Below, in pieces: positions 47,200 through 62,420 of a stretch of DNA of 64,000 nucleotides. Source of the stretch: Candidatus Omnitrophota bacterium. GTDB lineage: Bacteria > Omnitrophota > Omnitrophia > Omnitrophales > JACROU01. A program made the position numbers and the translations under genes. The notes under the pieces are model-generated. The model made no database searches. It was not told the DNA's origin and was given only the letters and a program-made list of their open reading frames with translations. Numbering within the stretch: position 1 is the stretch's first letter; every line of letters starts with the position of its first letter. The stretch covers positions 186,001 through 250,000 of the forward strand of contig JAJDCD010000008.1 of NCBI GenBank assembly GCA_029261035.1. The letters are read 5' to 3'.

Positions 47200-48131
47200 T
47201 GTTTTTTCATCTCCACAAATTCAATTACATTTTTCTCTAATTGAGCCTTATTCAATCGGTTTATTTCTTGTAAACATGTAGGTGAAGTCACATTAATCTC
47301 AATTAAACAGTCTCCGATAATATCAATCCCTACAAAAAACAAACCCTCTTTTTCAAGCATAGGTTTTATTTCTTTAATAATTTCCATATCTCGTTTTGTT
47401 ACCTCACTGCGCTCTGGCTTGCCTCCAGAGAAAAAATTATTTCTGTGATCCTTTTTGGAATGAACTCGAAGAACAGCCCCAAGGGGCTTCCCATCTAAAA
47501 GCAGAATTCTCTTATCCCCCTTTTTAGCCTCCGGCAAATACTCCTGAACAATAACCGGTTGAGTCTCCATTTGACTTAGGGTCTCAAACGCCACATTTGC
47601 ATTCAAGTCTCCTTTCTTAAGATGAAAGATAGACTTTCCCCCAAAACCATTTACCGGCTTCAAGATAATTTCTCCATGTTTTTCAATAAAAGGATTTAAA
47701 TCTTCTATCTTAGAAGTAACCAAGGTGTCTGGAATTAAATTTTTAAATTGAAGAGACCAAAGCTTTTCATTGGCTGTTCTAATCCCACTAGGTCTATTTA
47801 CAACAAACACAGAATCAGGCAATTGATCCAGCAACCAAGTATTAAATAAATACTGTTCATCAAAAGGAGGGTCTTTTCGTATAAAAACAACATCTACCTG
47901 ATTCTCGTTCAACCGCTTAACATCTTTAATATTAAATGGCGGAATCAAATCTAAATCAGGCTCAACTTCCACAACATCAAAACAAACTTTACCCTCTTTA
48001 TAAAAGAGGCCATTGTCCGCCAAATAAAATACTGTATGTCCATTTTGCTTCGCCCCCAACATCAAAGCAAGACTCGTATCTTTTTCCGGATCAATAGATT
48101 CTAATGGATCCATTAAGAAAACAAATTTCAT
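47184..48131 (-). CDS. gshB: Glutathione synthetase
   Basis: 315 codons, ATP-grasp enzyme. FLMDPLESIDPEKDTSLALMLGA, VVFIRKDPPFDEQYLFNTWLLD, VVNRPSGIRTANEKLW, ILKPVNGFGGKSIFHL, VQEYLPEAKKGDKRILLLDG, FFVGIDIIGDCLIEINVTSPT are all standard GshB landmarks. It adds glycine to gamma-glutamylcysteine. Start overlaps the gshA stop by four bases (ATGA); the glutaredoxin gene overlaps its 3' end. The order gshA-gshB-grx-bolA-grxD-bolA is one transcription unit by spacing. Confidence 0.97.
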   Translation of the reverse strand: MKFVFLMDPLESIDPEKDTSLALMLGAKQNGHTVFYLADNGLFYKEGKVCFDVVEVEPDLDLIPPFNIKDVKRLNENQVDVVFIRKDPPFDEQYLFNTWLLDQLPDSVFVVNRPSGIRTANEKLWSLQFKNLIPDTLVTSKIEDLNPFIEKHGEIILKPVNGFGGKSIFHLKKGDLNANVAFETLSQMETQPVIVQEYLPEAKKGDKRILLLDGKPLGAVLRVHSKKDHRNNFFSGGKPERSEVTKRDMEIIKEIKPMLEKEGLFFVGIDIIGDCLIEINVTSPTCLQEINRLNKAQLEKNVIEFVEMKKQCQKA

Positions 48132-49387
48132 TGATTCACGACCTTCTCTAAATGAATTATTTCACGGTGCGCTGCAATACCAGCAATTCGAGCTAAGATA
48201 TGATACACATCAAACATATTTTTCTCAGTACGAATCCCACACTTTAAAAAAGATTCGTTGTGCGGGCACATGGTCTCAAAGCGCATTCCCTTAGAATTTA
48301 AATTATCTCTCCCACTCTTATCATCATGAACCCGAAAAAAACCTCCTACAAATTGATTATCAATCTGATAAATACAGACTTCGCTCGCCTGCTCTTTTAC
48401 CTGACAATAACTGGGAACACCTTCTTGAAGGAGGTATCGATGTATGACTTGAGAGCCCTTCCCTTTGTATAACTTGTTTTTCTCTCTTCGATTTAACTCC
48501 AACACTTCCGAAGCATCATCAATAGGCATCACACCCATTCCATAGGTTCCACTATCAGCCTTAAGAAAGAGCAATGGCTTCTCTTTAATTTTATACTCAT
48601 TATATTTTTTTTGAATTTTCTGAAGCAAACCTGAAGCGGTCTCTGCAAGACGTTCTCTATCGCTTGGCTCATTAATATTCACATCAGAAACAACTTCATC
48701 AAAACACGTAAAAAACCAGGGGTCAAAATCTAACATCTCAGCAAACTCCTTCATCAAATCTGCGGTATGAGCAAAGTGATGAGACTTAGAACGAGAATGC
48801 CACCCCGCTTGAATTGAAGGATAAATTGGCGTCTTGGCATCCCTTAATATTTCAGGAATCCCTTTCGTTAAGTCATTATTCATAATAATAAGACAAGGGC
48901 GCATTCCCCCAGCCTCAATTCCACTTACAACTTTATTTATAGAATAAACTTTTAATTTATTACCCTTAGCCGTATCCAATTCTACAAAGTTAGCATCTTG
49001 GCAAATAGCGGGTTCAATATTTAAAAAAGTAGCGACCTTCACATTAAAGCCAGCTCTTTCAATTATTTTTTCTAAACTCCAAAGGTTTTCTAAATAGAAA
49101 GTATTTCGGGTATGTTCTTCTGCAATAATCAGAATATTCTTACAACCTTGAACTCGGTTCAAGATAGCTTTCTTCACCGCCACAACAGAATCTTCTATCC
49201 CATGCTCACATAAATTATTGAACCCCGCAGGAAACAAATTCGTATCCACAACTGCCAATTTAAAACCAGCATCTCGAATATCTACAGAAGAATAAAGAGG
49301 CAATTCCTTACTGGTCTCATACTGAAGCAACCAATGATGAATCTCCTCATTCTTCAAACTCATTTTTTCTAACAATCGATTAATCAC
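48128..49387 (-). CDS. gshA: Glutamate-cysteine ligase (TIGR02049-type)
   Basis: 419 codons. It is the ATP-grasp-like GshA variant first noted in Acidithiobacillus, unlike E. coli GshA: VDIRDAGFKLAVVDTNLFPAGFNNL, ILIIAEEHTRNTFYLEN, IMNNDLTKGIPEIL, HSRSKSHHF, LFLKADSGTYGMGVM and GRDNLNSKGMRFETMCPH. It makes gamma-glutamylcysteine in the first committed step of glutathione synthesis. It heads the thiol operon; the 490-base region upstream holds the repeat element and no other gene. Confidence 0.88.
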   Translation of the reverse strand: MINRLLEKMSLKNEEIHHWLLQYETSKELPLYSSVDIRDAGFKLAVVDTNLFPAGFNNLCEHGIEDSVVAVKKAILNRVQGCKNILIIAEEHTRNTFYLENLWSLEKIIERAGFNVKVATFLNIEPAICQDANFVELDTAKGNKLKVYSINKVVSGIEAGGMRPCLIIMNNDLTKGIPEILRDAKTPIYPSIQAGWHSRSKSHHFAHTADLMKEFAEMLDFDPWFFTCFDEVVSDVNINEPSDRERLAETASGLLQKIQKKYNEYKIKEKPLLFLKADSGTYGMGVMPIDDASEVLELNRREKNKLYKGKGSQVIHRYLLQEGVPSYCQVKEQASEVCIYQIDNQFVGGFFRVHDDKSGRDNLNSKGMRFETMCPHNESFLKCGIRTEKNMFDVYHILARIAGIAAHREIIHLEKVVNQ

Positions 49388-49457
49388 AACGTTTCCTTAA
49401 CTCTGCTCATAGCCATTAGCTTTTAGCTTTTTTCATAAATCCTAAATCACCTTCACT

Positions 49458-49720
49458 AGACAACAAATGCCTTTATCCCAATCCAAAATTAAAACCCCAA
49501 CAATAATAATACTTTCGTTATTTAATTAATAACGAAACACCCTAAACCCCAGAAACAATAGTTGCTCGATGCAACTCTTGTTTCAACCACCTAACACCCC
49601 ACACATGTTTACAACTCTAAAGAACAAGTGCGTATCCTCGCCGCGAGTTGCGCAAGCCAAAGGCCGAGCATGTCTGAGCGCCGAGGATATGCACTTGTTC
49701 GAACGCCCCTTAACATCCAC
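49458..49720. repeat. Structured dispersed element, copy A
   Basis: Within the 490-base gene-free gap 49388-49877. Parts in order: a shared lead ending GCCTTTATCCCA; palindrome TTTCGTTAT-TTAATTA-ATAACGAAA (about 49513-49537); hairpin GAAACAATAGTTGC/GCAACTCTTGTTTC with a TCGAT loop (about 49552-49584); and a long hairpin whose 19-bp stem (49622-49640 with 49682-49700) has 18 Watson-Crick pairs and one G-T. A 41-nt head CCGCGAGTTGCGCA..GAGCATGTCTGAGCGC is nearly identical to copy B at 59420-59460, but the stem sequences differ. The rest of the gap is AT-rich with TAGCTTTTAGC-like tracts. Confidence 0.85.
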
Positions 49721-49877
49721 CAACACAACCAAAACAGTCCTATATTATACATGAAACAAACAGATTACCGGAAGCAGTCTATAAGAAAATTAATACCAGG
49801 TAGGTTAAATGAGTTAAATCCCATAAATCACCTAAAATAAAGCCTAATTCTAGGTGCGAATCCCATATTTAAAGCAT

Positions 49878-50339
49878 TTATTTAGCAATTTTATCTATAA
49901 CAACCCATTCCTCTGGAGAAACAGGCTGAATAGAAAGCCTTTGCCCCTTCTGTAAAAGAGGCATTTTTGACAACCCCTTCACACCTCGAAGCATCTCTAA
50001 AGGCAAAAGCTCTTTGAATTTCTTCTTAAATCGTATATCAACCACGAACCAAGTCGGATTCTCTTTTTTGCTTTTCTCATCAAAATACTTACTCTTCTTA
50101 TCAAAAGCACTAGGATCTGGGTAACCCTCTTTTACAACCTCCGCAATTCCAGCAATACCTGGAGGCTCAGCATTACTGTGATAAAAAAAAACTTGATCAC
50201 CTACCTTCATCGTATCCCGCATAAAATTACGAGCTTGATAATTACGAACTCCATCCCAATATGTTTTTTCATCTTTTTTTAGATGATCAATAGAATAAAC
50301 ATTTGGCTCACTCTTCATTAGCCAATACTGCTTAGCCAT
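49878..50339 (-). CDS. EVE-domain protein
   Basis: About 153 codons from the ATG at 50339. KQYWLMKSEPNVYSIDHLKK, YWDGVRNYQARNFMRDTMKVGDQVFFYHSNAEPPGIAGIAEVV and PTWFVVDIRFKKKF cover the EVE/PUA-like fold, which binds modified DNA or RNA bases. The function in bacteria is uncertain; EVE proteins are linked to base-modification and defence-related processes. It overlaps the 3' end of the cysteine-cluster gene by eight bases and has no obvious modification enzyme beside it. Confidence 0.9.
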   Translation of the reverse strand: MAKQYWLMKSEPNVYSIDHLKKDEKTYWDGVRNYQARNFMRDTMKVGDQVFFYHSNAEPPGIAGIAEVVKEGYPDPSAFDKKSKYFDEKSKKENPTWFVVDIRFKKKFKELLPLEMLRGVKGLSKMPLLQKGQRLSIQPVSPEEWVVIDKIAK

Positions 50340-50820
50340 TCTTAACACCCTTCAAACGAATAGGCCCAGGAAATTTCTGCAATCGATCTTTAGGTTTGTA
50401 TTTCACACCTAATTTTCTGTTCATCGTTTCAAACACTTTAGGCTTCTTCTTAGCTAAATAATCATACAAATCTTCTTCATTCTTAAGAACATACTCTTCC
50501 TCGTATTCATCAACATAACGATAACAAGTTTTAGCTTCATAATCTCTACAGATCTGCGGTCTTTGAGGATGATAAGAGCATCTTCGTTGCTCTAGTTTTT
50601 CACAAGGAGTATTAAACTGGATATACCAATCATTCTGGTCATCCACATAGACCCAAACGTCTTTATGAATCACATACCACAAAATAAAATCAAAATCTTT
50701 AGCAGAAGTTGGTGTGTCAATCTCTAAAGCCACATACTCACAACAATAACTACATCCCTGACAAGCATTCGCATCTTTTGGATCAAACTCTTTTAAATTT
50801 CCTACTTTTGGCTCTGGCAT
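50332..50820 (-). CDS. YkgJ-family cysteine cluster protein
   Basis: 162 codons. CQGCSYCCEYVALEID near the N-terminus, C(E)KLEQRRCSYHPQRPQICRDYEAKTCYRY in the middle form the Cys-rich metal-binding motif of the UPF0153/YkgJ family, likely a zinc or iron-sulfur cluster. C-terminal RKLGVKYKPKDRLQKF is basic. The family function is unknown. It lies two bases after the exonuclease gene and overlaps the EVE gene. Confidence 0.88.
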   Translation of the reverse strand: MPEPKVGNLKEFDPKDANACQGCSYCCEYVALEIDTPTSAKDFDFILWYVIHKDVWVYVDDQNDWYIQFNTPCEKLEQRRCSYHPQRPQICRDYEAKTCYRYVDEYEEEYVLKNEEDLYDYLAKKKPKVFETMNRKLGVKYKPKDRLQKFPGPIRLKGVKNG

Positions 50821-50821
50821 T

Positions 50822-51607
50822 CTACTCCCCTTCTTTCTCTACTTGTTGAGACGGAAATTTACCATTCAACGCACCTCTAATAATTGTTTTAATTGAATCA
50901 CTAAAATCAGCTCTTAAAATCCACTCCAAATAGTTTTTATCCTTTTCAACAATCTGGTTCAAAGTGATTTTGCGTGCATATTTTCCAAACATCAAATACA
51001 AACCACCATTCCACCAACTAAATCTTTTTTCTTTATCAAAAAACTCCATTGGCGACGAGTAATCAAAGTCCTTTAAACTTTCAACGCTCCCATCTCCATA
51101 CTTATCTGCTTGGGATTGAATAATCTCCAATGTTGCTTCTGTATCCGCCATAGCCGTATGCGCATTCATCAGCTCCTTCTCACAGTAAAACTTATAGCCC
51201 GCACTTAAATCTCTTTTCTCATGAATATGAAAAACTTTTTGGGCATCATAAACAGTCCGTTTTCGCCAATCAAAAGGATAACCTGCATCGCTCATTTCCC
51301 TTTCCAGCACGGGTAAATCAAAACGCTCACAATTAAAGCCCCCTAAGTCTGCATCTCCTATAAATCGAAGTATTTCAGCAGCAATATCCTTAAACCAAGG
51401 AGCATCTTTCACATCCTCATCCTTAATTCCAATAAGCTCACTGACCTTGGGAGGGATAGGAATTCTAGGGTTGCATCGTTCTAAGTATTTTTCTGAGGTC
51501 CCATCAGGGTTACACTTAATCAAAGCAATCTCAACAATACGGTCTTTTTCAATCCAAATACCCGTTGTTTCCAAATCGAGAACAACAAGAGGATTTGTTA
51601 ATTTCAT
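50822..51607 (-). CDS. DEDDh 3'-5' exonuclease (DnaQ-like)
   Basis: 261 codons. ExoI motif LVVLDLETTGIWIEKDRIVEIAL, ExoII LGGFNCERFDLPVLEREM and ExoIII HTAMADTEATLEII give the DEDDh set. The last 90 residues (YSSPMEFFDKEKRFSWWNGGLYLMFGKYARKITLNQIV) form a small extra domain like those added to DNA polymerase III epsilon-type or oligoribonuclease-like exonucleases in deep-branching bacteria. Its start overlaps the glpD stop by four bases. Confidence 0.92.
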   Translation of the reverse strand: MKLTNPLVVLDLETTGIWIEKDRIVEIALIKCNPDGTSEKYLERCNPRIPIPPKVSELIGIKDEDVKDAPWFKDIAAEILRFIGDADLGGFNCERFDLPVLEREMSDAGYPFDWRKRTVYDAQKVFHIHEKRDLSAGYKFYCEKELMNAHTAMADTEATLEIIQSQADKYGDGSVESLKDFDYSSPMEFFDKEKRFSWWNGGLYLMFGKYARKITLNQIVEKDKNYLEWILRADFSDSIKTIIRGALNGKFPSQQVEKEGE

Positions 51608-53100
51608 AATAATTCCTTTATCACCTTATTAAAGTCTTCTTTAAATTGATTAAACAAACGAGCATTGTACCCTACAGATAGTCTACGGTAAACAATATCT
51701 TCTTCCTTAATAGCCATCTCAACATCAATAGAGTATTTTATTTGAGCTTTAATCATAGGTAAATCTGGATGGATTCTCTCTTTTAGTTCCGAATTTTCTT
51801 TTGTTAAATTTAGCACATCTTTATAACGAGCTCCGTACTTACTCATCAACTCACTTAATACTTCTAAATCAACACCATATTTTTCCGAAATTTGTTTAGG
51901 GTCATCCATTATTTTGCCCCCACTATATAAACTATACCTCTGTGTATTCGGAATCCTTATTAAACGTTTCAAACAATCAAAAGCCATTCTACGATATGTG
52001 GTGTACTTCCCACCTGCAACATAAGAAACCCCTGATTTGCTTTCATGAATCATGTGTTCCCTAGAAACTTTAGATGGATGCCCCTTGCTTTTAATAAGAG
52101 GCCTTAACCCAGCAAAGGAAACCGTATCTGTATGATCTAATTTCAAACCTGGAAAAACTCTCTTAGCCTCATTCATTAAATACTGAATATCTTCCTTCTC
52201 TGGACGAACATCATCAGGGTCCGAAGAATAATCCGTATCTGTAGTTCCAATTAACGAGTTTCCATTCCATGGAATAACAAAAAATACTCTATTGTCTTTA
52301 GGTGAAGGAATAAGAAAAGCATTTTTCGAAATTTCTTCAGGATAAACAATATGAACACCCTTAGTTGTCCTTACAATTTCTTTCTCATTTTCGCTATCCA
52401 GTTTTAATAATTTATTTGTCCAAGGGCCCACGGCACAAATTGTTTTTTCAGCACGAATCGTAAAAGAAGCTCCATGTGGATCTAACAAATCTTTAACTTC
52501 AGCACCAATCGTTCTACCTTGATGTTTTGCAAATGATTTCACTTCAACATAATTAGCGACGTCCACCCCAACCTCATATGCGGATAAAACATTTTCTAAA
52601 CAAAGACGGGCATCGTCCATCTGAGCATCATAATAAAGAACCCCACCTTTCAAACCTTCTCTGTTAATGCCAGGCTCTAAATGAATAACTTCTTCAGCTG
52701 TTAAATTGCGATGTGGGCGAATATTATATTTAAAAGAAAGCAGATCATAGAGAAAGACCCCCAGCTTTACGATCCAAAAAGGCCTTTTATCTCCTTTATA
52801 AACTGGAATCACAAATGGCATAGGCCTTACCAAATGGGGAACTTCCTTTAAATGAATAAAACGCTCAATCAATGCTTCACGCACCAACTTAAACTGAAAG
52901 CTCTCCAAATAACGAATACCCCCATGAACTAGCTTTGAAGATTTGCTCGAAGTTCCACTAGCAAAATCCCCTTTATCAATCAAAGCTGTCTTAAGACCCA
53001 TTGAAGCCGCTATATAAGCAATGGACGCACCATTAATGCCTCCTCCAATGACTAATAGATCATAAGTGCTCTTCTTTAAATTTTCCACACGTCGCTTCAT
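51604..53100 (-). CDS. glpD: FAD glycerol-3-phosphate dehydrogenase
   Basis: 498 codons. FAD-binding LLVIGGGINGASIAYIAASMGLKT, ASGTSSKSSKLVHGGIRYLESFQF, RPHRNLTAEEVIHLEPGI, SLIGTTDTDY, SFAGLRPLIKS, GGKYTTYRRMAFDCL, all GlpD/GlpA landmarks. It passes electrons from glycerol-3-phosphate to quinone at the membrane, which points to a respiratory chain. No glpK or glpF is in the window. Overlaps the exonuclease gene by four bases and is divergent from the MFS transporter. Confidence 0.95.
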   Translation of the reverse strand: MKRRVENLKKSTYDLLVIGGGINGASIAYIAASMGLKTALIDKGDFASGTSSKSSKLVHGGIRYLESFQFKLVREALIERFIHLKEVPHLVRPMPFVIPVYKGDKRPFWIVKLGVFLYDLLSFKYNIRPHRNLTAEEVIHLEPGINREGLKGGVLYYDAQMDDARLCLENVLSAYEVGVDVANYVEVKSFAKHQGRTIGAEVKDLLDPHGASFTIRAEKTICAVGPWTNKLLKLDSENEKEIVRTTKGVHIVYPEEISKNAFLIPSPKDNRVFFVIPWNGNSLIGTTDTDYSSDPDDVRPEKEDIQYLMNEAKRVFPGLKLDHTDTVSFAGLRPLIKSKGHPSKVSREHMIHESKSGVSYVAGGKYTTYRRMAFDCLKRLIRIPNTQRYSLYSGGKIMDDPKQISEKYGVDLEVLSELMSKYGARYKDVLNLTKENSELKERIHPDLPMIKAQIKYSIDVEMAIKEEDIVYRRLSVGYNARLFNQFKEDFNKVIKELL

Positions 53101-53280
53101 AATCGCTCACATTCAAGTTTTTGCTTTTCAACTAACAGAATGTCACATATGTGACGTTCCCAATTACTTGCATTTTAATTCAAAACTCCCTCGAATCAAA
53201 TAACCTTCTTTCCAAAACAGATAATAATTGCTATCCTACTGCCTTTGAAATTAATCCAAATCAAAAACTAGGATCCCTCA

Positions 53281-54537
53281 TTGAACAAGAAAGCCGCTCT
53301 CTTCACCGTTTTTTTAGCAGTCCTCATAGACCTTATGGGTTTCGGACTCGTTCTCCCATTAATTCCTTTTTATGCTACAAAATTCAATGCAACACCTATA
53401 ACAATTGGACTTCTTTACAGTGTTTACTCCTTCGCCCAACTCATCTGCTCTCCTATCTGGGGGAGTTTTTCAGATCGATTTGGAAGACGACCTATTATGC
53501 TCATAAGCACTCTAGGCGCGTCAATCGCTTATCTTATATTTGGTTTCGCTAACTCGATACTTATCCTCTTTATATCTCGACTCTTTGCCGGCGTGATGGG
53601 TGGAAATATTTCTGCAGCTCAAGCCTACGTAGCAGATGTTACATCTCATGAAGATCGCGCTAAAGGCATGGGGCTCATCGGAGCCGCTTTTGGAATTGGG
53701 TTTTTATTTGGCCCTGCCATCGCTTCTGTATTAATCCACCCAAAGTTCATGAGTTTTTTTAACATTCCGGAAAATTATAAATTTTTAATCCCAGGATTAT
53801 TTGCTTCAGCCTTATCTCTAATAAGTTTCTTTTTTGTTCTATTCAAACTTCCAGAAACAGTCAAAAAAGGTGCCCCCTCTGAAGAAGTCGATCCAGAACG
53901 AATCTCGAAATCTAGCATCTTCAGCAAATCCTTTTGGGTTTCTATCTTGGCAGAAAAACCATCAGGCACACGATATATCCTTCCCATTTTAATTGGATGT
54001 ATCTTCTTATTCTCTTTTGGTCAAGCCAGCCTCTATAGCTCGTTTCCTTTATTCTGTAAATTTCAGCTAGAAATCCCTGTAGAAAAAGTTGGGCTTCTTT
54101 TTGCTTTTATGGGCCTCATTGCCATCTTTGTTCAGGGTGGTCTAATTCGAATCTTAGTTAAGAAATACAGTGAAGAACCTGTGTTTTTAACAGGCAGCGT
54201 TTTAATGGTAATCGGCTTTGCCCTTATTCCTTGTGCTCAATCTAGAAATCAATTACTTTTAGTATTAGTTCCCCTTGCTCTTGGTGGCAGCTTAACAGCC
54301 CCCACACTCACTAGCTTTATCTCCAAAGAAGCAGATCCAAAACGTTTAGGACAAGCAATGGGAACCTCTCAAGGGGTATCTGCTCTTGGAAGAGCTTTAG
54401 GTCCTACTTGGGGTGGAATACTTTATGGAATGTCTTTCTTTTTACCTTTTATTGTAACTTCAGGAATTATTGTACTGACAGTTGTTGCAGGAATTGTTAT
54501 TTGGAACAACCATAGATCTAAGCAAACTTCCCTCTAA
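53281..54537 (+). CDS. MFS transporter, TetA-like
   Basis: 418 codons with 12 predicted helices. The start is TTG at 53281 (AGGA nearby); the next ATG lies inside the first helix, so TTG is necessary. Helix 1 carries VFLAVLIDLMGFGLVLPLIPFYA and the loop 2-3 motif A is GSFSDRFGRRPIM, followed by GANISAAQAYVADVT-like motif C region. This is the DHA1 drug-exporter form, close to TetA in layout. Substrate unknown. It converges on the dicarboxylate symporter gene with no gap (stop at 54537, next stop at 54538). Confidence 0.88.
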   Translation: MNKKAALFTVFLAVLIDLMGFGLVLPLIPFYATKFNATPITIGLLYSVYSFAQLICSPIWGSFSDRFGRRPIMLISTLGASIAYLIFGFANSILILFISRLFAGVMGGNISAAQAYVADVTSHEDRAKGMGLIGAAFGIGFLFGPAIASVLIHPKFMSFFNIPENYKFLIPGLFASALSLISFFFVLFKLPETVKKGAPSEEVDPERISKSSIFSKSFWVSILAEKPSGTRYILPILIGCIFLFSFGQASLYSSFPLFCKFQLEIPVEKVGLLFAFMGLIAIFVQGGLIRILVKKYSEEPVFLTGSVLMVIGFALIPCAQSRNQLLLVLVPLALGGSLTAPTLTSFISKEADPKRLGQAMGTSQGVSALGRALGPTWGGILYGMSFFLPFIVTSGIIVLTVVAGIVIWNNHRSKQTSL

Positions 54538-55773
54538 TTACTTTGCGTCAAATATTTCTTTAGAGAACTGCTTTTCGCTTTTCGCTACAACGCAACTTAT
54601 GGTCGCATCCCCTGTCACATTAACCGCGGTTCTCATCATATCCAACAATCGATCTACTCCGATAATAAGACCAATACCTTCAACAGGCAATCCTACTTGA
54701 TTTAAAACTAAGGCCAACATAATAAGCCCCACACCTGGGACCCCTGCTGTTCCAATCGAAGCAAGCACTGCTGTCAGAACAACCATTAGAAAATCAACAG
54801 CATCCAATCCAACACCATACGCTTGAGCAATAAATACAGTTGCAACCCCTTGCATAATTGCGGTTCCATCCATATTAATCGTAGCGCCTAAAGGCAAGGT
54901 GAATGACGCAATCGAATTCTTAACACCTAACTTATGTTCACAAGTTTCCAAATTAACCGGAAGTGTTGCATTACTACTAGCAGTACTAAAAGCAAATAAA
55001 ATAACATTCCTAAAGTTTCTAAAGAAAACAAGAGGATTTAAACCGCATAAAAATTTTAAAATCAAAGGATAAACAAGGGTTATATGCATAAGCAAAACAA
55101 GAGTAACAACAAAAAAGTACTTAGATAAAGGAGCAATAGCATCTAAACCCTGCTTAGCAAACACTTGTGCTATCAAGCAAAAAACACCATAAGGTGCTAA
55201 TTCCATAATAATTAAAACCATCTTCATAATCACTTCATTCGCAGATTGAAAGAGTTGAAGTACAGGCTTCCCTTTTTCACCAACTAAGGTTAAGGCCAAG
55301 CCGAAAAGGATGGAAAAAACAATAATCTGAAGCATATTCCCTTCAACCATTGCTTTAATAGGATTAGAAGGAAATATATTAATAAAAGTTTGTGCTAACG
55401 TTGGGGCCTCTTTCATCTGAAAAGAAGTTTCACTCATCAAATTAAAACCAACTCCGGGCTGTATTATTAAAGCCATCAAAAGAGCCAGACTAATAGCTAT
55501 AGCAGTTGTTAATATGTACAATCCAAAAGATTTTCCACCGACACGTCCTAACTTCCGAACATCATCCAAAGCAGCCGTACCACAAACCAAAGATACAAAC
55601 ACCAGAGGAACAACCAAGAGTTTAAGCAAAGCTAAAAAAACCTTCCCAACAACATGAAAAAATTCATCCACAAAAAAAGAAGAGAACGCTCCATCAATTC
55701 CATTCAGATTAAACGTAACCCCTGTCACAAGCCCTAAAAACATACCCAACAAAATCTTCATGGTTAAACTCAT
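54538..55773 (-). CDS. Dicarboxylate/amino acid:cation symporter (DAACS)
   Basis: 411 codons. Family motifs: VVGKVFLALLKLLVVPLVFVSLVCG, the re-entrant TASSNATLPVNLETCE, TLPLGATINMDGTAIMQGVATVFIAQAYG and ASIGTAGVPGVGLIMLALVL, then VDRLLDMMRTAVNVTGDA. These are the substrate- and sodium-binding segments of GltP/SstT/DctA proteins. It takes up glutamate, aspartate or C4-dicarboxylates with Na+ or H+. The SSNATLP loop has Asn-Ala where many members have Ser-Ser-Gly, a common variant. The next gap of 185 bases holds a hairpin. Confidence 0.95.
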   Translation of the reverse strand: MSLTMKILLGMFLGLVTGVTFNLNGIDGAFSSFFVDEFFHVVGKVFLALLKLLVVPLVFVSLVCGTAALDDVRKLGRVGGKSFGLYILTTAIAISLALLMALIIQPGVGFNLMSETSFQMKEAPTLAQTFINIFPSNPIKAMVEGNMLQIIVFSILFGLALTLVGEKGKPVLQLFQSANEVIMKMVLIIMELAPYGVFCLIAQVFAKQGLDAIAPLSKYFFVVTLVLLMHITLVYPLILKFLCGLNPLVFFRNFRNVILFAFSTASSNATLPVNLETCEHKLGVKNSIASFTLPLGATINMDGTAIMQGVATVFIAQAYGVGLDAVDFLMVVLTAVLASIGTAGVPGVGLIMLALVLNQVGLPVEGIGLIIGVDRLLDMMRTAVNVTGDATISCVVAKSEKQFSKEIFDAK

Positions 55774-55878
55774 GATTTAATTCCTTTGTTTATTAGCGTA
55801 GAGCGCATAGCGTTTAGTAAAACTTCCTTTTTCTTAACAAGACAACTGTCATCCCTCAAAGCTCTCAGCTTAACTATC

Positions 55879-55903
55879 ATCCCCGAAATCTTTTATCGGG
55901 GAT
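55879..55903. terminator. Hairpin ATCCCCGA/TCGGGGAT between mrp and the symporter
   Basis: ATCCCCGA (55879-55886) and TCGGGGAT (55896-55903) form a perfect 8-bp stem with a 9-base loop. It lies between mrp (downstream of its stop) and the symporter. There is no strong T-run, so it may be a weak terminator or part of a 'cccgaaatcttttatcggggatcc' type repeat. A TAGCG tract (GCGTAGAGCGCATAGCG) precedes it at 55796-55815. Confidence 0.5.
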
Positions 55904-55958
55904 CCAGAAATCAAGAACTAGATTCCCTCCTAAGGGGGAATAACAAGACTTATGATTT

Positions 55959-57263
55959 CTACTTCAAACTCTTCAGGTATTCGTATGTATAAATCCCCGT
56001 TCCATGACCATCACTCCAGTCAAATCGAACACCATAACTTCCTACCTTTTCCATTCCTTTAACAGACACTTCTGAATCTAGCTGCTCTTTATTTATTCTT
56101 CTCTCACCCGAAACCTCATCCACACATTCAGCACAAGCACAAGCTGCTCGCAAATCAAAAGCCTTAAAATTTTGTTCGCTCCCATCCACCCAAACAACCT
56201 TAACTTGCTTATCTGTTGGCAAAGATATTTCTTGCAGCTCACTGAGACTATTAGCTTTATACTCTGTTAACTTTTCTGCAATCTTCTTAAACACTAAAGA
56301 CACTTCAGACTCAGGATCAGACTTAACAATAGGAACCCCTTGATCCGATTGGATGCGAAGCTCTTTTGAGAGTGGAATTTCTCCTAAAACAGGAATCCCC
56401 TTTGAAGCCGCGTACGTTGAAGCCCCTCCCTTACCAAAAATATCTCCTATCATATTTTCTATAAGCCCAATCACAGGCGTATTTAATTTTTTAAACATAA
56501 TCACCGCTTTTTCTGCGACATGAAAAGCCAAGTCCTGAGGCGTAGATACAATAACAGCCCCAGTCAAAGGAATACTCTGGCACAAACTCAAATGAACATC
56601 TCCAGTACCTGGAGGTAAATCTATAACCAAATAATCTAGCTCTCCCCATTCCACTTGTCCCAAAAACTGCTCTATCATCTTATGAAGCATAGGACCTCTC
56701 CAGATAACAGCATCATCTTTCGGCAAGAAAAAACCCATAGAAATGATTTTAATCCCATGACAAACAGGAGGAATTATTTTACCGTCTTGTTGTAATGGCT
56801 TCTCATTAGCACCCATCAAGATCGGAATACTAGGACCATAAACATCGGCATCCATCAAACCCACTTTAAAACCCAACTCAGAAAGAGCAATTGCTAAATT
56901 AGCACTCACCGTCGATTTGCCAACCCCACCCTTTCCACTTGCAACCGGAATAATATTTTTAACCTGAGGAGCCAGCAAGGGTTTAGGAGGAGCCTGATGA
57001 GAATGTTGTCCTTCAGAACCCAACTTAATCTTTAAATCAACATCCACATCTTTAATATCAGGAAGAGTTAATAAAACTTCCTTAACCTTATCCTTAATTG
57101 CATTACGCTCTGGGCTCACGGGTGGGGGTAACTCAATAGAAATAATTGCCTTCGTTCCCTCTAATTCTACTTCCTTCACAAAACCTAAAGACAAAATATC
57201 TTTATCCAAATGCGGATCAATTACCTGAGAAAGCTTCTCTGAAATTTGTTGTTTATCTGCCAT
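55959..57263 (-). CDS. Mrp/NBP35 iron-sulfur carrier ATPase with C-terminal DUF971 domain
   Basis: 434 codons. Residues 1-80: MIP18/DUF59 domain (ISEKLSQVIDPHLDKDILSLGFV). Then the ParA-like P-loop VASGKGGVGKSTVSANLAIAL (about 108-128), LMDADVYGPSIPILMG, DYLVIDLPPGTGD. The last 90 residues (VKVVWVDGSEQNFKAFDLRAACACAECVDEVSG..) are a DUF971/GBBH N-terminal-like domain with a CACAEC Cys cluster. Mrp proteins hold a bridging Fe-S cluster and deliver it to apoproteins; the fused domain is a known variant. Fits with the nearby cysteine desulfurase and BolA/Grx genes. Confidence 0.9.
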   Translation of the reverse strand: MADKQQISEKLSQVIDPHLDKDILSLGFVKEVELEGTKAIISIELPPPVSPERNAIKDKVKEVLLTLPDIKDVDVDLKIKLGSEGQHSHQAPPKPLLAPQVKNIIPVASGKGGVGKSTVSANLAIALSELGFKVGLMDADVYGPSIPILMGANEKPLQQDGKIIPPVCHGIKIISMGFFLPKDDAVIWRGPMLHKMIEQFLGQVEWGELDYLVIDLPPGTGDVHLSLCQSIPLTGAVIVSTPQDLAFHVAEKAVIMFKKLNTPVIGLIENMIGDIFGKGGASTYAASKGIPVLGEIPLSKELRIQSDQGVPIVKSDPESEVSLVFKKIAEKLTEYKANSLSELQEISLPTDKQVKVVWVDGSEQNFKAFDLRAACACAECVDEVSGERRINKEQLDSEVSVKGMEKVGSYGVRFDWSDGHGTGIYTYEYLKSLK

Positions 57264-57326
57264 ATCATCCTCTTTCTAAACGATTTAAGATTTATTCTAA
57301 CATATTAGACCCCTTAATAGGTCCCA

Positions 57327-57335
57327 TGATATAAT
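57327..57335 (+). promoter_or_regulatory. Extended -10 promoter very close to dus start
   Basis: TGATATAAT (TG-A-TATAAT) ends only eight bases before the dus ATG, so a transcript would start within one or two bases of the start codon, giving a leaderless or near-leaderless mRNA. A GAAAGG-like ribosome site lies in the same spacer. Confidence 0.5.
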
Positions 57336-57343
57336 GAAAGGCT

Positions 57344-58309
57344 ATGATTAAGCTAAAAAACTTCACTCTTAAAAGCAACGTAATCCAATCCCCTATGGCT
57401 GGCTGCACCGATATCGCATTCAGACTATTGGCCAGACAATACGGAATGGAGTTCGCCTTCTTAGAAATGGTCTCCTCAGAGTCTCTCGTTCGAAAAACAG
57501 AAAAAACATTTCGCCTTTTAAAAAGCGTAGAAGCAGACAAGCCTTTAGGAGCTCAAATTGTTGGCTGTAACCCTGACGTTATGGGTGAAGCTGCTAGTAT
57601 GGTAGAAGACCTTGGATTTGACCTCATAGACATTAATATAGGTTGTCCTGTACCCAAAATCACAGGGCCTGGTGGAGGCTCTGCTCTTTTAAGAGAACCC
57701 AAAACAGCAGCAGAAGTGATCCGTAAAGTTGTTAAGAGTGTAAAAAACATCCCCGTTACCGTAAAAATGAGAAAAGGCTACGCAGATCCATCAGGAGATG
57801 AAGCCGTTAATATTGCAAAAATTGCAGAAGACGTAGGCGCATCCGCCGTCACTGTTCACGGAAGAACGAGAGAACAAGGTTACTCCGGCATCGCGGATTG
57901 GGAAGCTATAGGTAAAGTAAAACGAGCGATTAAAATTCCCGTATTCGGAAATGGAGACGTCAATAATGGCGAAGACGCTCAAAGGCTGATAGACATCAGT
58001 GGTTGCGATGGGGTCATGATTGGAAGAGGAGCTCTAGGAAATCCTTGGATATACAAATCCATTGAAAACACCCTAAACAAAAAAGCGAATCCTGCTTACT
58101 CCCCATCAACAGAAGAACAAAGAGAAGCTGCTCTAAAACATTTAAAATTAGAAATTGAATATGAAGGCGAAAAAATTGGTGTGTTGAAATGTCGAAGAAT
58201 GATTTGTTGGTACTTCAAAGAACAAGCTGGAATTGCAAAGTTTAGAGCCAAAATTAACAAAGCAACAACATTTAATGAAGTAGAAGACTTAATTCTGAAT
58301 TTTGGATAG
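57344..58309 (+). CDS. dus: tRNA-dihydrouridine synthase
   Basis: 321 codons, FMN-dependent DusB-type. VIQSPMAGCTDIAFRLLARQYG, LGAQIVGCNP, and the catalytic Cys in DLIDINIGCPVPKITGPGGGSALL, then VTVKMRKGYADPSG, VTVHGRTREQGYSG, FGNGDVNN and the GVMIGRGALGNPWIY motif. It reduces specific uridines in tRNA. The N-terminal 'QSPMAG' replaces the more usual 'APMAG'. Its TAG stop overlaps the first of four palindromes; maf converges from the other side. Confidence 0.95.
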   Translation: MIKLKNFTLKSNVIQSPMAGCTDIAFRLLARQYGMEFAFLEMVSSESLVRKTEKTFRLLKSVEADKPLGAQIVGCNPDVMGEAASMVEDLGFDLIDINIGCPVPKITGPGGGSALLREPKTAAEVIRKVVKSVKNIPVTVKMRKGYADPSGDEAVNIAKIAEDVGASAVTVHGRTREQGYSGIADWEAIGKVKRAIKIPVFGNGDVNNGEDAQRLIDISGCDGVMIGRGALGNPWIYKSIENTLNKKANPAYSPSTEEQREAALKHLKLEIEYEGEKIGVLKCRRMICWYFKEQAGIAKFRAKINKATTFNEVEDLILNFG

Positions 58310-58420
58310 TGACTGTCACTTGCCTACATTACTCAGAGCAAAGTGACTGTCACTATCCACAAATCACTCACAAGTGACAGTCACCAAGGTCTATGCTTAC
58401 ATAGCCTGATGACAGTCACT
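58308..58420. repeat. Array of four 13-bp palindromes between dus and maf
   Basis: AGTGACTGTCACT occurs at 58308-58320 and 58342-58354, and AGTGACAGTCACC/GATGACAGTCACT at 58373-58385 and 58408-58420. Each is a near-perfect inverted repeat (AGTGAC-W-GTCACT), spaced about 31-35 bases. The first overlaps the dus stop and the last the maf stop, so the array fills the convergent gap. It may be a bidirectional terminator, a protein-binding array or a repeat family; spacer sequences are not repeats, so it is not a CRISPR. Confidence 0.8.
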
Positions 58421-58991
58421 TTTTCAACTCTTTAAGCATCTCTTTCAACAACTCTCTTGGCAACCCAATCACATTAGAATAAGAACCCTTATACCACTCC
58501 ACAATCTTAGGGCTTTTCTGGATTGCATATCCCCCCGCTTTATCTAACGGATCTACTTTTTGTACGTACTCATCAACAGCTCTCTCACTCAGTCTTTTAA
58601 ACTTAATCTCTGTCTCATCATAGCTTGCCAAAACTTCATTATGTTTATAATCAATAAAAGCAACCCCGGTCATAACGATATGTTTTTTTCCAGACATAGT
58701 AGACAACATTCTCTTAGCTTCCGCAATACTCTTGGGTTTTCCTAAAATACGATTATTAAAATAAACAATCGTATCAGAACCTAAAACCAAACCTTTTTTC
58801 ACAGGAAGTTTTGCTTTTTCTGCTTTTCCTAACGCATGAAGAATAACTAATTTCTCCGGAGAAACACCCTTCATAGGACGTTCTTTATATGTTGATGGAA
58901 CTCTTTTATAACGAAGCCCCATCTTCTCTAACAACTCACCTCTTCGCGGAGATTGAGACGCTAGATAAATCAATGGGTTATTTCTCTTCAT
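58416..58991 (-). CDS. maf: Maf-like nucleoside triphosphate pyrophosphatase
   Basis: About 191 codons from the ATG at 58991 (GGAG seven bases upstream); a longer TTG reading is rejected. IYLASQSPRRGELLEKMGLRY, VLGSDTIVYFNNRILGKPKSIAEAKRMLSTMSGKKHIVMTGVAF and DKAGGYAIQ are Maf landmarks. It hydrolyses dTTP/UTP or modified nucleotides and has been linked to septum formation. The start lies inside the last codons of the small membrane-protein gene upstream, a 14-base overlap. Confidence 0.94.
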   Translation of the reverse strand: MKRNNPLIYLASQSPRRGELLEKMGLRYKRVPSTYKERPMKGVSPEKLVILHALGKAEKAKLPVKKGLVLGSDTIVYFNNRILGKPKSIAEAKRMLSTMSGKKHIVMTGVAFIDYKHNEVLASYDETEIKFKRLSERAVDEYVQKVDPLDKAGGYAIQKSPKIVEWYKGSYSNVIGLPRELLKEMLKELKK

Positions 58992-59160
58992 CCATCTGCT
59001 CCTTTTTCTTTTTCGACCCTGCAATTAGCATCATAACGCCTAAAGTAAAAAAAGAAAGAAAACTGATCATTGCCCAAACAAGACTTCTCTGAGAACCCGT
59101 AATAAACGCAAATAAAAAGAAAACAATAGCCGGCAACGTATAACTAACAAAATGCTTCAT
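58978..59160 (-). CDS. Small two-helix membrane protein upstream of maf
   Basis: 60 codons from the ATG at 59160, preceded by AAAGGGGTGGGG. Two hydrophobic segments (FVSYTLPAIVFFLFAFITG and LVWAMISFLSFFTLGVMMLIAG) are followed by a basic/acidic tail SKKKKEQMDEEK. Such a tail is typical of a small inner-membrane protein with a cytoplasmic C-terminus. It is coupled to maf by overlapping reading frames, which supports that it is translated. No family recognised. Confidence 0.6.
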   Translation of the reverse strand: MKHFVSYTLPAIVFFLFAFITGSQRSLVWAMISFLSFFTLGVMMLIAGSKKKKEQMDEEK

Positions 59161-59237
59161 CCCCACCCCTTTAACTCCAAAAAAAGATCGTTACACAAGT
59201 AACGATACAACCCTAAATCCTATCCAAACACTCTCAG

Positions 59238-59490
59238 AACTGACAACGCCTTTATCCCACTCCACAAATAAAATTCCTAAAAATAACAATGCGTTTCGTT
59301 ATTTAATTAATAACGAAACACTATAAACCCAAGAAACAATAGTTGCTCGATGCAACTCTTGTTTCAACCCCTAACACCCCACAAAAGTTATTAACTTAAA
59401 GGAAAATGGAATATTTCCGCCGCGAGTTGCGCAGCCCAAAGGGCGAGCATGTCTGAGCGCCGGAAACATTCCATTTTCCGACTCACCCCA
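59238..59490. repeat. Structured dispersed element, copy B
   Basis: Second copy of the element at 49458-49720, in the 336-base gap 59167-59502. Same order of parts: lead GCCTTTATCCCA, palindrome TTTCGTTAT-TTAATTA-ATAACGAAA (about 59294-59318), hairpin GAAACAATAGTTGC/GCAACTCTTGTTTC, then a stem-loop with the shared 41-nt head at 59420-59460. Its 19-bp stem (59401-59419 with 59461-59479) is GGAAAATGG..ATTTCCG and its complement, differing from copy A at 9 of 19 positions on the left arm, yet still pairing with one A-C mismatch. Short AT-rich flanks. Confidence 0.85.
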
Positions 59491-59502: not shown

Positions 59503-61689
59503 CTACGTAGAACTCACCTTAGACCCACCACCCTCTCTAACCATATCAAACTTACTAGGACTCCACTCTCTTCTCAAAGGAACCCCCGCAAGATAAGGAA
59601 GAACAAAAATAGCAACAAGCGGCGCCATACAAGACCCTATAATCACACAAATCCCAAACCGTTGTGTCGGTGGAAAATTAGAAAGAGCAAAAATGCCAAA
59701 ACCACTACTAATAATAATCATTGAAAATAAAATAGGTTTCCACAAACGAATTCTTGCCTGAACCCAAGCGTCCCAATACCCTTGACCTTCTTTCTTAATA
59801 TACCGCCTCACAAAGATAAGGGTATGAATCATCGCATCCACCCCCATAGCTATAGCCAAATTAACCGAAGGAGTCGAAATAATTTCCAAAGGAATTTTAA
59901 AATAACCCATCAATCCAAGTAAAGTAAATGGAATTAAACAAAGACTAATAAACATAGCCCAAGTAACACGCATAGATCTGGATAAAGAAAGAGACATCAA
60001 AACAAAAAGCCCAATCAATAAAGCTAGTCCCATCTGAAGACTTGAAACAATTAACTCAGAAAGTTTTTTCTGGAGTAAATAAGCTCCGCCTAAAAACTCA
60101 GGGATAAATCCATTATCATTCACAATCTGATTAATTTGATTTACAACATTTTCCCGGGTATCTTGACGATTAGCCTCCTTCATCCTTAATATAAAAAAAC
60201 CTTTTTTCCGATCTTTGGTTATAAAATATTTACCCACCTCATCGTATTTGGGCAAATCCATAAATTGCAACAAACGTTCCCAAGAAATCAACTTCGCGAA
60301 AGGAACTCTCCGTGCTTCCGCCATCATAATAGGAAGAGAAATAACCATTCCTACATCCGGGATCGTTTCCAAAGCCCGGTTCAAATCCCACATTTTCCTA
60401 TAAGAAGACTCGGTATTTAATCTCACACCTTCTGGCGTATCTATCACTAAATTAACAGGACTACTTCCTCCATTGCTATCCACATACTCTATCCCTTCTC
60501 TAATTTCTCCTCCCTGCTTAAAATAAGAAATCAAGCTAGGATCCACATTAAGACGATGAATGCCTGAAAATGTCAGAATACATAAAATGATAATAAAGAA
60601 AACAGCAATACCATGCTGACGTGATAAAAAATGATGTCTATAATCTTTAATAGGCTTCTTAAGATGTTTCCCCTCACCATAAATATCGTGAATATGTAAA
60701 AACCAAGGGTAAAATAAATACGCAACAACAAAAGCAATACAAGTTCCAATAGCACCACAAACACCCAGGTTTCGAATAGGTTCCGCCTCGACAAACAAAA
60801 GGCTCACAAAACCAAGGAATGTCGTTAACATACTCCAAAAAGAAGCTGTAAAGGTAACTTTAACAGCCTCCCATGAGGCATTAGTAATGTCTCCCCCATA
60901 TTTTACAGAGTATTTCCAGTTAAACGTTAAAAAGACAATATGCGATAACGTTAGAACGAAAACAATAGTAGAAAGGTTAGCTGTTAAAACCCCAATTTCA
61001 AACTTCATGAACTGATTCACAATCAAAGTAAGACAACTTGCATTTGCACAAGCAACAACAGTCCCCAAAACCACCCAAAAAGAACGAAATATAAGCACCA
61101 CCACTAGCCCAAATACAATTGCAGAAGCAATGCTGAATTTCTTCAAATCATTCTCTAAGTTTCTGCGGATTAATTCATTAATATAAGGAATGCCAGAAAT
61201 AAGGATCTCAAAACCGTGGGTTTCATATTTACCTTTCAAATACTCTAATTTGGGCACAATTTGATCTGGAGTCACCCCAAGCTTAAGAAAAATAAGGATA
61301 TTAGAAGATTCTTTATTCGAAGAAAGTAGCACCCGTTTCCATAAAGGACTCTCAAGAATATCCGTCATATTCTTAGGCCCCTTGGTCATCGATTGGACAG
61401 ACGCAACTTCCTCAAAGGTATCAATCTCATCCGTCAACAACTTCATTCTTTCCAGGTAATCAGAGTAAATACTGCCTCGAACACTAATTAATACTTGTTG
61501 AGGTTGAGGGAAGATCGAAGCAATCTTAGTATCAATTTGAAACTGGGGGTCATCTTCGGAAAAGAAAAAGTTCTCCTCTACCTTGGGCTTCAAATCAACA
61601 TAATTAAACAAAGTAACCAAAGAAACACAAGTAACCCCTATAAAAACAAGGGGTAATATAAGAACCAAAAACTTCTTAAAACTATTCAT
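59503..61689 (-). CDS. RND/MMPL-type exporter
   Basis: 728 codons. An N-terminal helix, a periplasmic loop of about 150 residues (with QQVLISVRGSIYSDYLERM), a five-to-six-helix bundle, a second periplasmic loop and another bundle: the duplicated MMPL layout of about 12 helices. LNVDPSLISYFKQGGEIREGIEYVDSNGGSSPVNLVIDT and the C-terminal AMGVDAMIHTLIFVRRYIKKEG resemble predicted RND exporters acting on lipids (MmpL/HpnN type). No adaptor or outer-membrane partner is adjacent. Substrate unknown; carotenoid or lipid export is only a guess. Confidence 0.88.
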   Translation of the reverse strand: MNSFKKFLVLILPLVFIGVTCVSLVTLFNYVDLKPKVEENFFFSEDDPQFQIDTKIASIFPQPQQVLISVRGSIYSDYLERMKLLTDEIDTFEEVASVQSMTKGPKNMTDILESPLWKRVLLSSNKESSNILIFLKLGVTPDQIVPKLEYLKGKYETHGFEILISGIPYINELIRRNLENDLKKFSIASAIVFGLVVVLIFRSFWVVLGTVVACANASCLTLIVNQFMKFEIGVLTANLSTIVFVLTLSHIVFLTFNWKYSVKYGGDITNASWEAVKVTFTASFWSMLTTFLGFVSLLFVEAEPIRNLGVCGAIGTCIAFVVAYLFYPWFLHIHDIYGEGKHLKKPIKDYRHHFLSRQHGIAVFFIIILCILTFSGIHRLNVDPSLISYFKQGGEIREGIEYVDSNGGSSPVNLVIDTPEGVRLNTESSYRKMWDLNRALETIPDVGMVISLPIMMAEARRVPFAKLISWERLLQFMDLPKYDEVGKYFITKDRKKGFFILRMKEANRQDTRENVVNQINQIVNDNGFIPEFLGGAYLLQKKLSELIVSSLQMGLALLIGLFVLMSLSLSRSMRVTWAMFISLCLIPFTLLGLMGYFKIPLEIISTPSVNLAIAMGVDAMIHTLIFVRRYIKKEGQGYWDAWVQARIRLWKPILFSMIIISSGFGIFALSNFPPTQRFGICVIIGSCMAPLVAIFVLPYLAGVPLRREWSPSKFDMVREGGGSKVSST

Positions 61690-61880
61690 TCAGCCTCTCA
61701 AAATAAGCACAATTACATTAAGTATTAATAAAATAACAAGTTATACAAATTATACCCTTTTATATGGAAAACAAAAAGAGCTGTTGTCATTCCGAAAAGA
61801 GTAACAGCGCATGTCCACCATCATGTTGGATGGAAAAAATATCGTAGAGATTAAACGAAAATACATAATAAGTCCCTCAG

Positions 61881-61927
61881 ACAGGCCCGGGCCTCTTATT
61901 TTCGAAAAAAGGAGGCCCGGGCCTAAA
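61881..61927. repeat. GC-rich double-palindrome unit, copy 1
   Basis: Two perfect 12-bp palindromes AGGCCCGGGCCT (61883-61894, 61913-61924), 30 bases apart, around a TTTTCGAAAA centre, in otherwise AT-rich DNA. A second copy of this unit is at 62361-62407, on the other side of the ArsC-like gene. Confidence 0.85.
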
Positions 61928-61947
61928 TGCATAAATGCACTAACTTA

Positions 61948-62301
61948 TTACTTCCAATTCTTCTTAAATACCACCTCATCAAAACCCACCGTATGCTTCT
62001 TCCCATCACTGATAATAGGTCTTTTAACCAACTTCCCATTCTTAGCTAGTAATTGGACTAAATCAGCCTCTTTCATCGTTTTAATCTTATCCCTCATATT
62101 CATCTCTCGATACAGAACTCCTGACTTATTAAACAAATCCTTAATCCCATAAGTCCCTTCTTTTAATATAGTTACAAATAATTTCTTACTTGGAGGCCTA
62201 GACGTAATATCGATATCCTTATACTGAATCTTCTTCCCATCCAAGTATTTCTTAGCATTCCTACAAGTTCCACATTTATCATACCCATAAAACTCCATCA
62301 T
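61948..62301 (-). CDS. ArsC/Spx-family thioredoxin-fold protein
   Basis: About 118 codons from two adjacent ATG codons at 62301/62298 with AAGGGAG upstream; a longer reading has an unrelated N-terminus. MEFYGYDKCGTCRNAKKYLDGKKIQYKDIDIT carries CGTC in the redox position, then TSRPPSKKLF, KDLFNKSGVLYREMNMRDKI and KRPIISDGKKHTVGF, the ArsC/Spx/MgsR ending. It may be a glutaredoxin-like reductase or regulator; arsenate reductase activity is not shown. Bracketed by two copies of the GC-rich palindrome unit. Confidence 0.88.
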   Translation of the reverse strand: MMEFYGYDKCGTCRNAKKYLDGKKIQYKDIDITSRPPSKKLFVTILKEGTYGIKDLFNKSGVLYREMNMRDKIKTMKEADLVQLLAKNGKLVKRPIISDGKKHTVGFDEVVFKKNWK

Positions 62302-62360
62302 CCCAAACTCCCTTCTAGTTAAATGAAATAATTCAGAGACATTATACACACCACCCCAAA

Positions 62361-62407
62361 ACAGGCCCGGGCCTGTTTTTTTCGAAATATTCAGGCCCGG
62401 GCCTAAA
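62361..62407. repeat. GC-rich double-palindrome unit, copy 2
   Basis: AGGCCCGGGCCT at 62363-62374 and 62393-62404, again 30 bases apart around TTTTTCGAAA, ending CCTAAATG as in copy 1. The flanking trinucleotide and centre differ slightly, but spacing and both palindromes are unchanged. It precedes the amt regulatory region. Confidence 0.85.
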
Positions 62408-62420
62408 TGAAGGAAAAGCA

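Follow-up and report, generated by a model that had tools for sequence, protein, structure and literature searches.

We found that two structured elements in a 64,000-nucleotide stretch of an Omnitrophota genome (the window) belong to a family of about 55 DNA hairpins scattered over this 2.70 Mb genome, and that the tip of these hairpins recurs in distant bacterial phyla on stems of unrelated sequence. The family is extragenic, covarying and REP-like in its behaviour, although it is not REP by definition. We give about even odds (probability roughly 0.5) to the reading that these extragenic hairpins form a dispersed, REP-like family, in which the tip would serve as a recognition module on a folded single strand and the arms as a clamp.

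A sequence-only reading had described the copies at about 49458-49720 (A) and 59238-59490 (B), and both were found there (Table 1), in units that average about 276 nt from the outer arm to the TTTAGGATTTA tail and thus exceed the extent first given. On the minus strand of the window, the sense strand of the units and of the flanking genes alike, the order within a unit is hairpin 3 with its head, a linker, hairpin 2, hairpin 1 (GTTTCGTTAT..ATAACGAAAC), GGGATAAAGGC, and TTTAGGATTTA. Copy A sits between an EVE-like gene upstream (49878-50348) and an ATP-grasp-like gene (48128-49387), both named from sequence reading, and a gene ending at 59503 precedes copy B. The palindrome and second hairpin reported for both copies are present, and the region of hairpins 1 and 2 is 96% alike over 76 nt. 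Likewise, the heads proved to be near-identical, with three differing bases that include a compensated flip from G-C to C-G. The claim that the arms differ while their pairing is kept was also borne out: the left arms of A and B differ at 9 of 18 compared positions, the own arms of hairpin 3 pair at 15 of 16 scored positions in each copy, and exchanged partners pair at 9 and 7. The single non-Watson-Crick pair on the plus strand is a G-T in copy A and an A-C in copy B, as described. Compared to shuffled sequences, none of which equalled them, the two copies had folding z-scores of -5.9 and -3.6 (RNA) and -9.4 (DNA). A scan with a terminator consensus flagged hairpin 2 in A and B and also hairpin 1 in B, but not hairpin 3. 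Elsewhere in the window, two 56-nt repeats (61874-61929 and 62354-62409; 84% alike, each with two AGGCCCGGGCCT palindromes) bracket an ORF at 61948-62349 that is ArsC/Spx-like by sequence.

Table 1 Features of copies A and B in the window.
Feature	Position	Strand	Remarks
Copy A, whole unit	49440..49720	-	Feature order common to about 30 full-length copies in the genome
Copy A, hairpin 3	49622..49700	-	Drifting arms 49622-49639 and 49683-49700, which bear the head
Copy A, conserved tip (head)	49645..49678	-	CTCAGACATGCTCGGCCTTTGGCTTGCGCAACTC on the minus strand; cross-phylum motif
Copy A, hairpin 2	49552..49584	-	Loop CATCGAG conserved, arms drifting; terminator-like
Copy A, hairpin 1 (palindrome TTTCGTTAT..ATAACGAAA)	49513..49537	.	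Most conserved part of full-length units
Copy B, whole unit	59212..59490	-	Same feature order as about 30 full-length copies
Copy B, hairpin 3	59401..59479	-	Arms 59401-59418 and 59462-59479; inverted repeat
Copy B, conserved tip (head)	59424..59457	-	Cross-phylum motif
Copy B, hairpin 2	59333..59365	-	Loop CATCGAG; terminator-like
Copy B, hairpin 1 (palindrome TTTCGTTAT..ATAACGAAA)	59294..59318	.	
Terminator-like stem, ATCGTTACTTGTGTAACGAT then CTTTTTTT	59187..59206	-	Directly downstream of copy B, sense strand

A DNA search of the window's own genome returned more than 40 matches, and a covariance model of hairpin 3, built on 26 sequences that all came from other genomes, found 55 copies. 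For the 51 copies with both arms readable, own pairing amounted to 14.96 of 16 positions compared to 7.73 for exchanged arms, and none of 2000 permutations came close; the mean pairwise identity of the left arms is 0.44. Hairpin 2 behaves in the same way (49 copies; own arms pair at 10.6 of 14 positions, swapped arms at 6.5). The sequence-only reading had named copies with non-pairing arms as evidence against it; we searched the genome for such copies, and the family came through this search. Across 28 full-length copies, conservation peaks in hairpins 1 (0.84) and 2 (0.67); divergence is roughly the same in the arms (0.44), the linker (0.51), and the upstream flank (0.38). The two arms thus change much as loosely constrained sequence would, but they do so jointly. 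In many copies of this genome the apical part is replaced (CACAAAA..TTTTGTG, often with GTGACTGTCAC palindromes), which leaves CTCAGACA...AACTC as the near-invariant part. The GTGACTGTCAC palindromes occur, often as inverted pairs, in the apical parts of many heads and in spacers (L016, L017, L021, L218, L229, and other loci of this genome) and are possibly the true REPs of its RAYT genes. At one locus (L012, G000:C16:4101-7287), two units lie about 480 bp apart in opposite orientation, and each appears to sit at the 3' end of one of two convergent genes.

The tip has the consensus CTCARACA..TSC../..GSA..ACTC on the strand opposite to the window's plus strand. It is composed of an internal loop (CTCARACA/AACTC) and a three-base-pair helix that changes between UCC/GGA and UGC/GCA, with a variable apical stem-loop above; the arms below, about 18-30 bp long, drift freely in sequence with their pairing kept. 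Among the matches listed, we found the tip at hairpin apices in Coriobacteriia, Bdellovibrionota, Deltaproteobacteria, Omnitrophota, and Lachnospiraceae, and in single genomes elsewhere. The arms of the tip hairpins in other groups are unrelated in sequence and mostly paired, and it is the hairpin-3 tip rather than the whole unit that is found in other genomes. The 30 carrier genomes of other groups hold 1 to 96 copies each, and the covariance model gave matches in 9 of 58 genomes sampled from the window's order and phylum, a patchy distribution. Of the 19 arm pairs in the 26-sequence cross-genome alignment, 18 vary on both sides. The covariation score of this alignment is 0.64, compared to 0.17 after shuffling and at most 0.29 with slid partners, and 84% of its cells are paired, compared to 56% after shuffling and no more than 51% with partners slid by 1 to 3 columns. 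Tips also occur as inverted pairs 30-200 bp apart (L179, L196, and L177; G018:C42:180036-180353, G018:C17:9461-9802, and G026:C99:17068-17250), and those of G018 bear long AT-rich apical inserts.

No Rfam family matched the hairpins at gathering or relaxed thresholds; above gathering, only tRNAs and one raiA RNA were detected. In the open-licence literature, we found no published description of the tip, of such repeats in Coriobacteria or Omnitrophota, or of a cross-phylum stem-loop. Two tip patterns had no match in viral contigs, phage and E. coli collections gave no convincing tip match, and a pattern made from the tip variant of the window's genome only had no match in the genome collection. 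A piece of 19-23 nt, CCGCAGCGAAGCGAGGACT (E-value 0.3-0.9), also occurs in enterobacterial plasmids, without tip or arms, which we regard as a weak resemblance; the piece is intergenic in IncN and other enterobacterial plasmids (L244, 2001-2023; L245 and L246, 2001-2019). A kink-turn reading of the tip was set aside on account of its spacing.

In eight genomes of one Collinsella-type genus, which carry 0 to 21 tip copies, the flanking genes locate the same spacer. The ilvC-side spacer (ilvN-ilvC by sequence) has the tip in six of the eight genomes, that is, in six species, and the arms have been rewritten and re-paired there, with scores of 18-26 for own and 0-16 for swapped arms. G076 and G091, for example, are 96% similar in the coding flank and 29% by position in the left arm, and each hairpin pairs. 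One of the eight genomes, G088, has no copy genome-wide and a short ilvC-side spacer. At a second locus, bounded by CGCGCG, the hairpin is present in G076 and absent in G091, with flanks 96-97% similar; a deletion would also leave CGCGCG, and no clean insertion with a target duplication was established. Tips in this set often form inverted pairs about 130 bp apart. The sequence-only reading had held that the folded form is under selection. Pairing that is kept across about 50 copies of the window's genome and across phyla agrees with this claim, whereas hairpin-templated repair could also match the arms; selection on the folded form is the likeliest reading.

We then compared strands and positions. 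On the GAGTTCC strand of 77 non-redundant hairpins outside the window's genome, G-T outnumbers A-C by 46 to 18, and 32 tight apical loops read GAA, GCA, or GGA, the shortest loops being mostly of these types. Such loops are those of very stable DNA mini-hairpins. G-T and A-C are rare even when taken together, at about 4 to 5 percent of pairs overall, and structured RNAs usually carry more wobbles than this. In the window's genome the ratio is 23 to 14 (p 0.19), with no clear strand preference. In other groups, the copies are mostly intergenic, with a weak bias in orientation to genes (tandem 26 to 17; convergent 16 to divergent 8) and a slight bias in skew (56 of 87), and outside the window's genome it is, if anything, the non-GAGTTCC strand that is more often co-directional with genes. 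The low wobble fraction and the less co-directional G-T-tolerating strand lean towards recognition of folded DNA, but the p-values for strand asymmetry ignore shared descent. Tentatively, one may go further and take the hairpins for a class of DNA elements not described before, mobile or nucleoid-organising and spread across phyla, in which a conserved protein would read the tip alone, independently of Y1 transposases, and the arms could be any self-complementary sequence.

Doubtful, yet the best of the competing explanations, is that the hairpins act as structured RNA in 3' untranslated regions (a terminator, 3'-end protection, or a protein-binding site) and have spread with transcripts. Of the 26 copies in the window's genome whose upstream gene could be scored, 24 (92%) follow a co-directional gene, which mostly ends 10-40 nt before them. 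Hairpin 2 is terminator-like, the hairpins of the unit keep their pairing, and the copy at C16:6073, which is inverted relative to its neighbour, sits 3' of a convergent gene. However, the leading-strand gene bias of this genome is itself about 90% in most sampled stretches, and since the co-orientation of copies does not exceed it, transcription and replication are inseparable here. The sense strand of the copies coincides with the G-rich strand in almost every stretch sampled, and a contig 16 stretch with reversed skew bears its copy reversed. A segment of the same contig in which GC skew and gene direction are reversed (L211 and L212; G000:C16:110001-130000 and 210001-230000) is possibly an inversion or a replication-strand switch. 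The weak gene orientation elsewhere, the very low G-T fraction, and the lack of an Rfam match further argue against an RNA element. The earlier suggestion of a structured RNA is thus possible for the window's genome, where the copies are co-oriented with genes, and weaker in other genomes, because the G-T-tolerating strand is not the preferred transcribed strand.

The family resembles the REP/BIME/REPIN sequences associated with TnpA-REP (RAYT) in its tens of dispersed intergenic hairpins, inverted doublets, patchy distribution, and some bias for gene ends, and the many intergenic palindromic copies per genome that mark REP/RAYT systems are found here (1-96 in 30 genomes, 55 in the window's genome). 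Y1 genes are also common in the same genomes (19 of 22 checked, with four in the window's genome), and for two RAYT subclasses no REP partner is known (PMC6006769). Nevertheless, we consider it unlikely that the hairpins are true REPs mobilised in trans by a Y1 (TnpA-REP/RAYT) transposase. No tip lies within reach of any of about 50 Y1 loci in carriers and relatives, and PF01797 (Y1) had no match in G006 (25-30 tips), G067 (7), and G069 (25), although these are draft assemblies, in which absence is not absolute. The hairpins fall outside the REP/RAYT definition for these two reasons. Moreover, the tip is conserved and the stem drifts, which is the reverse of REPs, and the foot of the tip hairpins bears no GTAG/CGTC-type tag. 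In three Omnitrophota genomes, a Y1_Tnp (RAYT-like) gene adjoins a ComM/YifB-like gene (L058, G000:C18:331036-333377; L062; L063).

Among recurrent neighbour genes at 80 loci, none was specific to the copies, and the loci examined bear out the initial observation that neither a recombinase nor a reverse transcriptase nor any other gene goes with them. The inverted tip pairs inspected, 130 bp to 3 kb apart, enclose ordinary genes or nothing, with no recurring mobility gene. Two further proposals of the sequence-only reading, namely IS200/IS605-type ends and an attachment site, found no support here, as no element boundary with a transposase was found, no mobility gene recurs inside the pairs, and the Y1 genes lie elsewhere. 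Non-autonomous derivatives of IS200/IS605 do share subterminal hairpins that are read as folded single-stranded DNA, and the copies of the window's genome are polarised with replication; in contrast to such derivatives, neither a second end nor an adjacent tnpA was seen, and the arms of the tip hairpins drift freely. Integron attC sites likewise fold from a single strand into a hairpin whose internal region is conserved and whose apical part varies, but here the outer arms drift, there is no cassette array, and on reading the hairpins we noticed no conserved outer R boxes of the attC kind (GTTRRRY/RYYYAAC) at their base. The BoxC and TM-ECO triplex repeats of E. coli are likewise structured intergenic repeats of obscure role in several genomes (PMC4666352), but their consensus is a purine-rich triplex (CCCTCNCCC..GGGNGAGGG) unlike the tip. 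The least probable explanation is that the arms are functionless and matched by hairpin-templated mutation (quasipalindrome correction), with the tip surviving as selfish or inert sequence, which would suit near-perfect Watson-Crick arms with few wobbles, changes in blocks, and a divergence about like that of the linker, but leaves the cross-phylum tip conservation, the strand asymmetry and GNA loops, and the stable positions at orthologous spacers unexplained.

Under the preferred reading of a REP-like family, the tip would be recognised by a host or trans-acting protein once one strand folds back, either as single-stranded DNA at replication or as an extruded cruciform. The arms would merely clamp the tip, so that any pairing sequence would suffice. 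No gene recurs beside the copies at the loci examined, and no recognising protein for the tip was identified. Copies would spread rarely as non-autonomous units and then stay put, and settled copies may serve as hairpins at 3' ends or between cistrons. Within the window's genome, the tip hairpin is now the first part of a unit of about 280 nt with the terminator-like hairpin 2; mostly placed just downstream of a stop codon, this unit may also work at the level of the transcript, where it would stabilise 3' ends or terminate transcription.

Overall, a tip of about 30-45 nt that is common to distant phyla, on stems that are fully changed and still paired, implies that some widespread, hitherto undescribed recogniser exists. 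As six Collinsella species keep the spacer hairpin and rewrite its arms, they provide a natural test of selection versus hairpin-templated repair of palindromes. The REP idea would also extend to hairpins without a Y1 transposase alongside.
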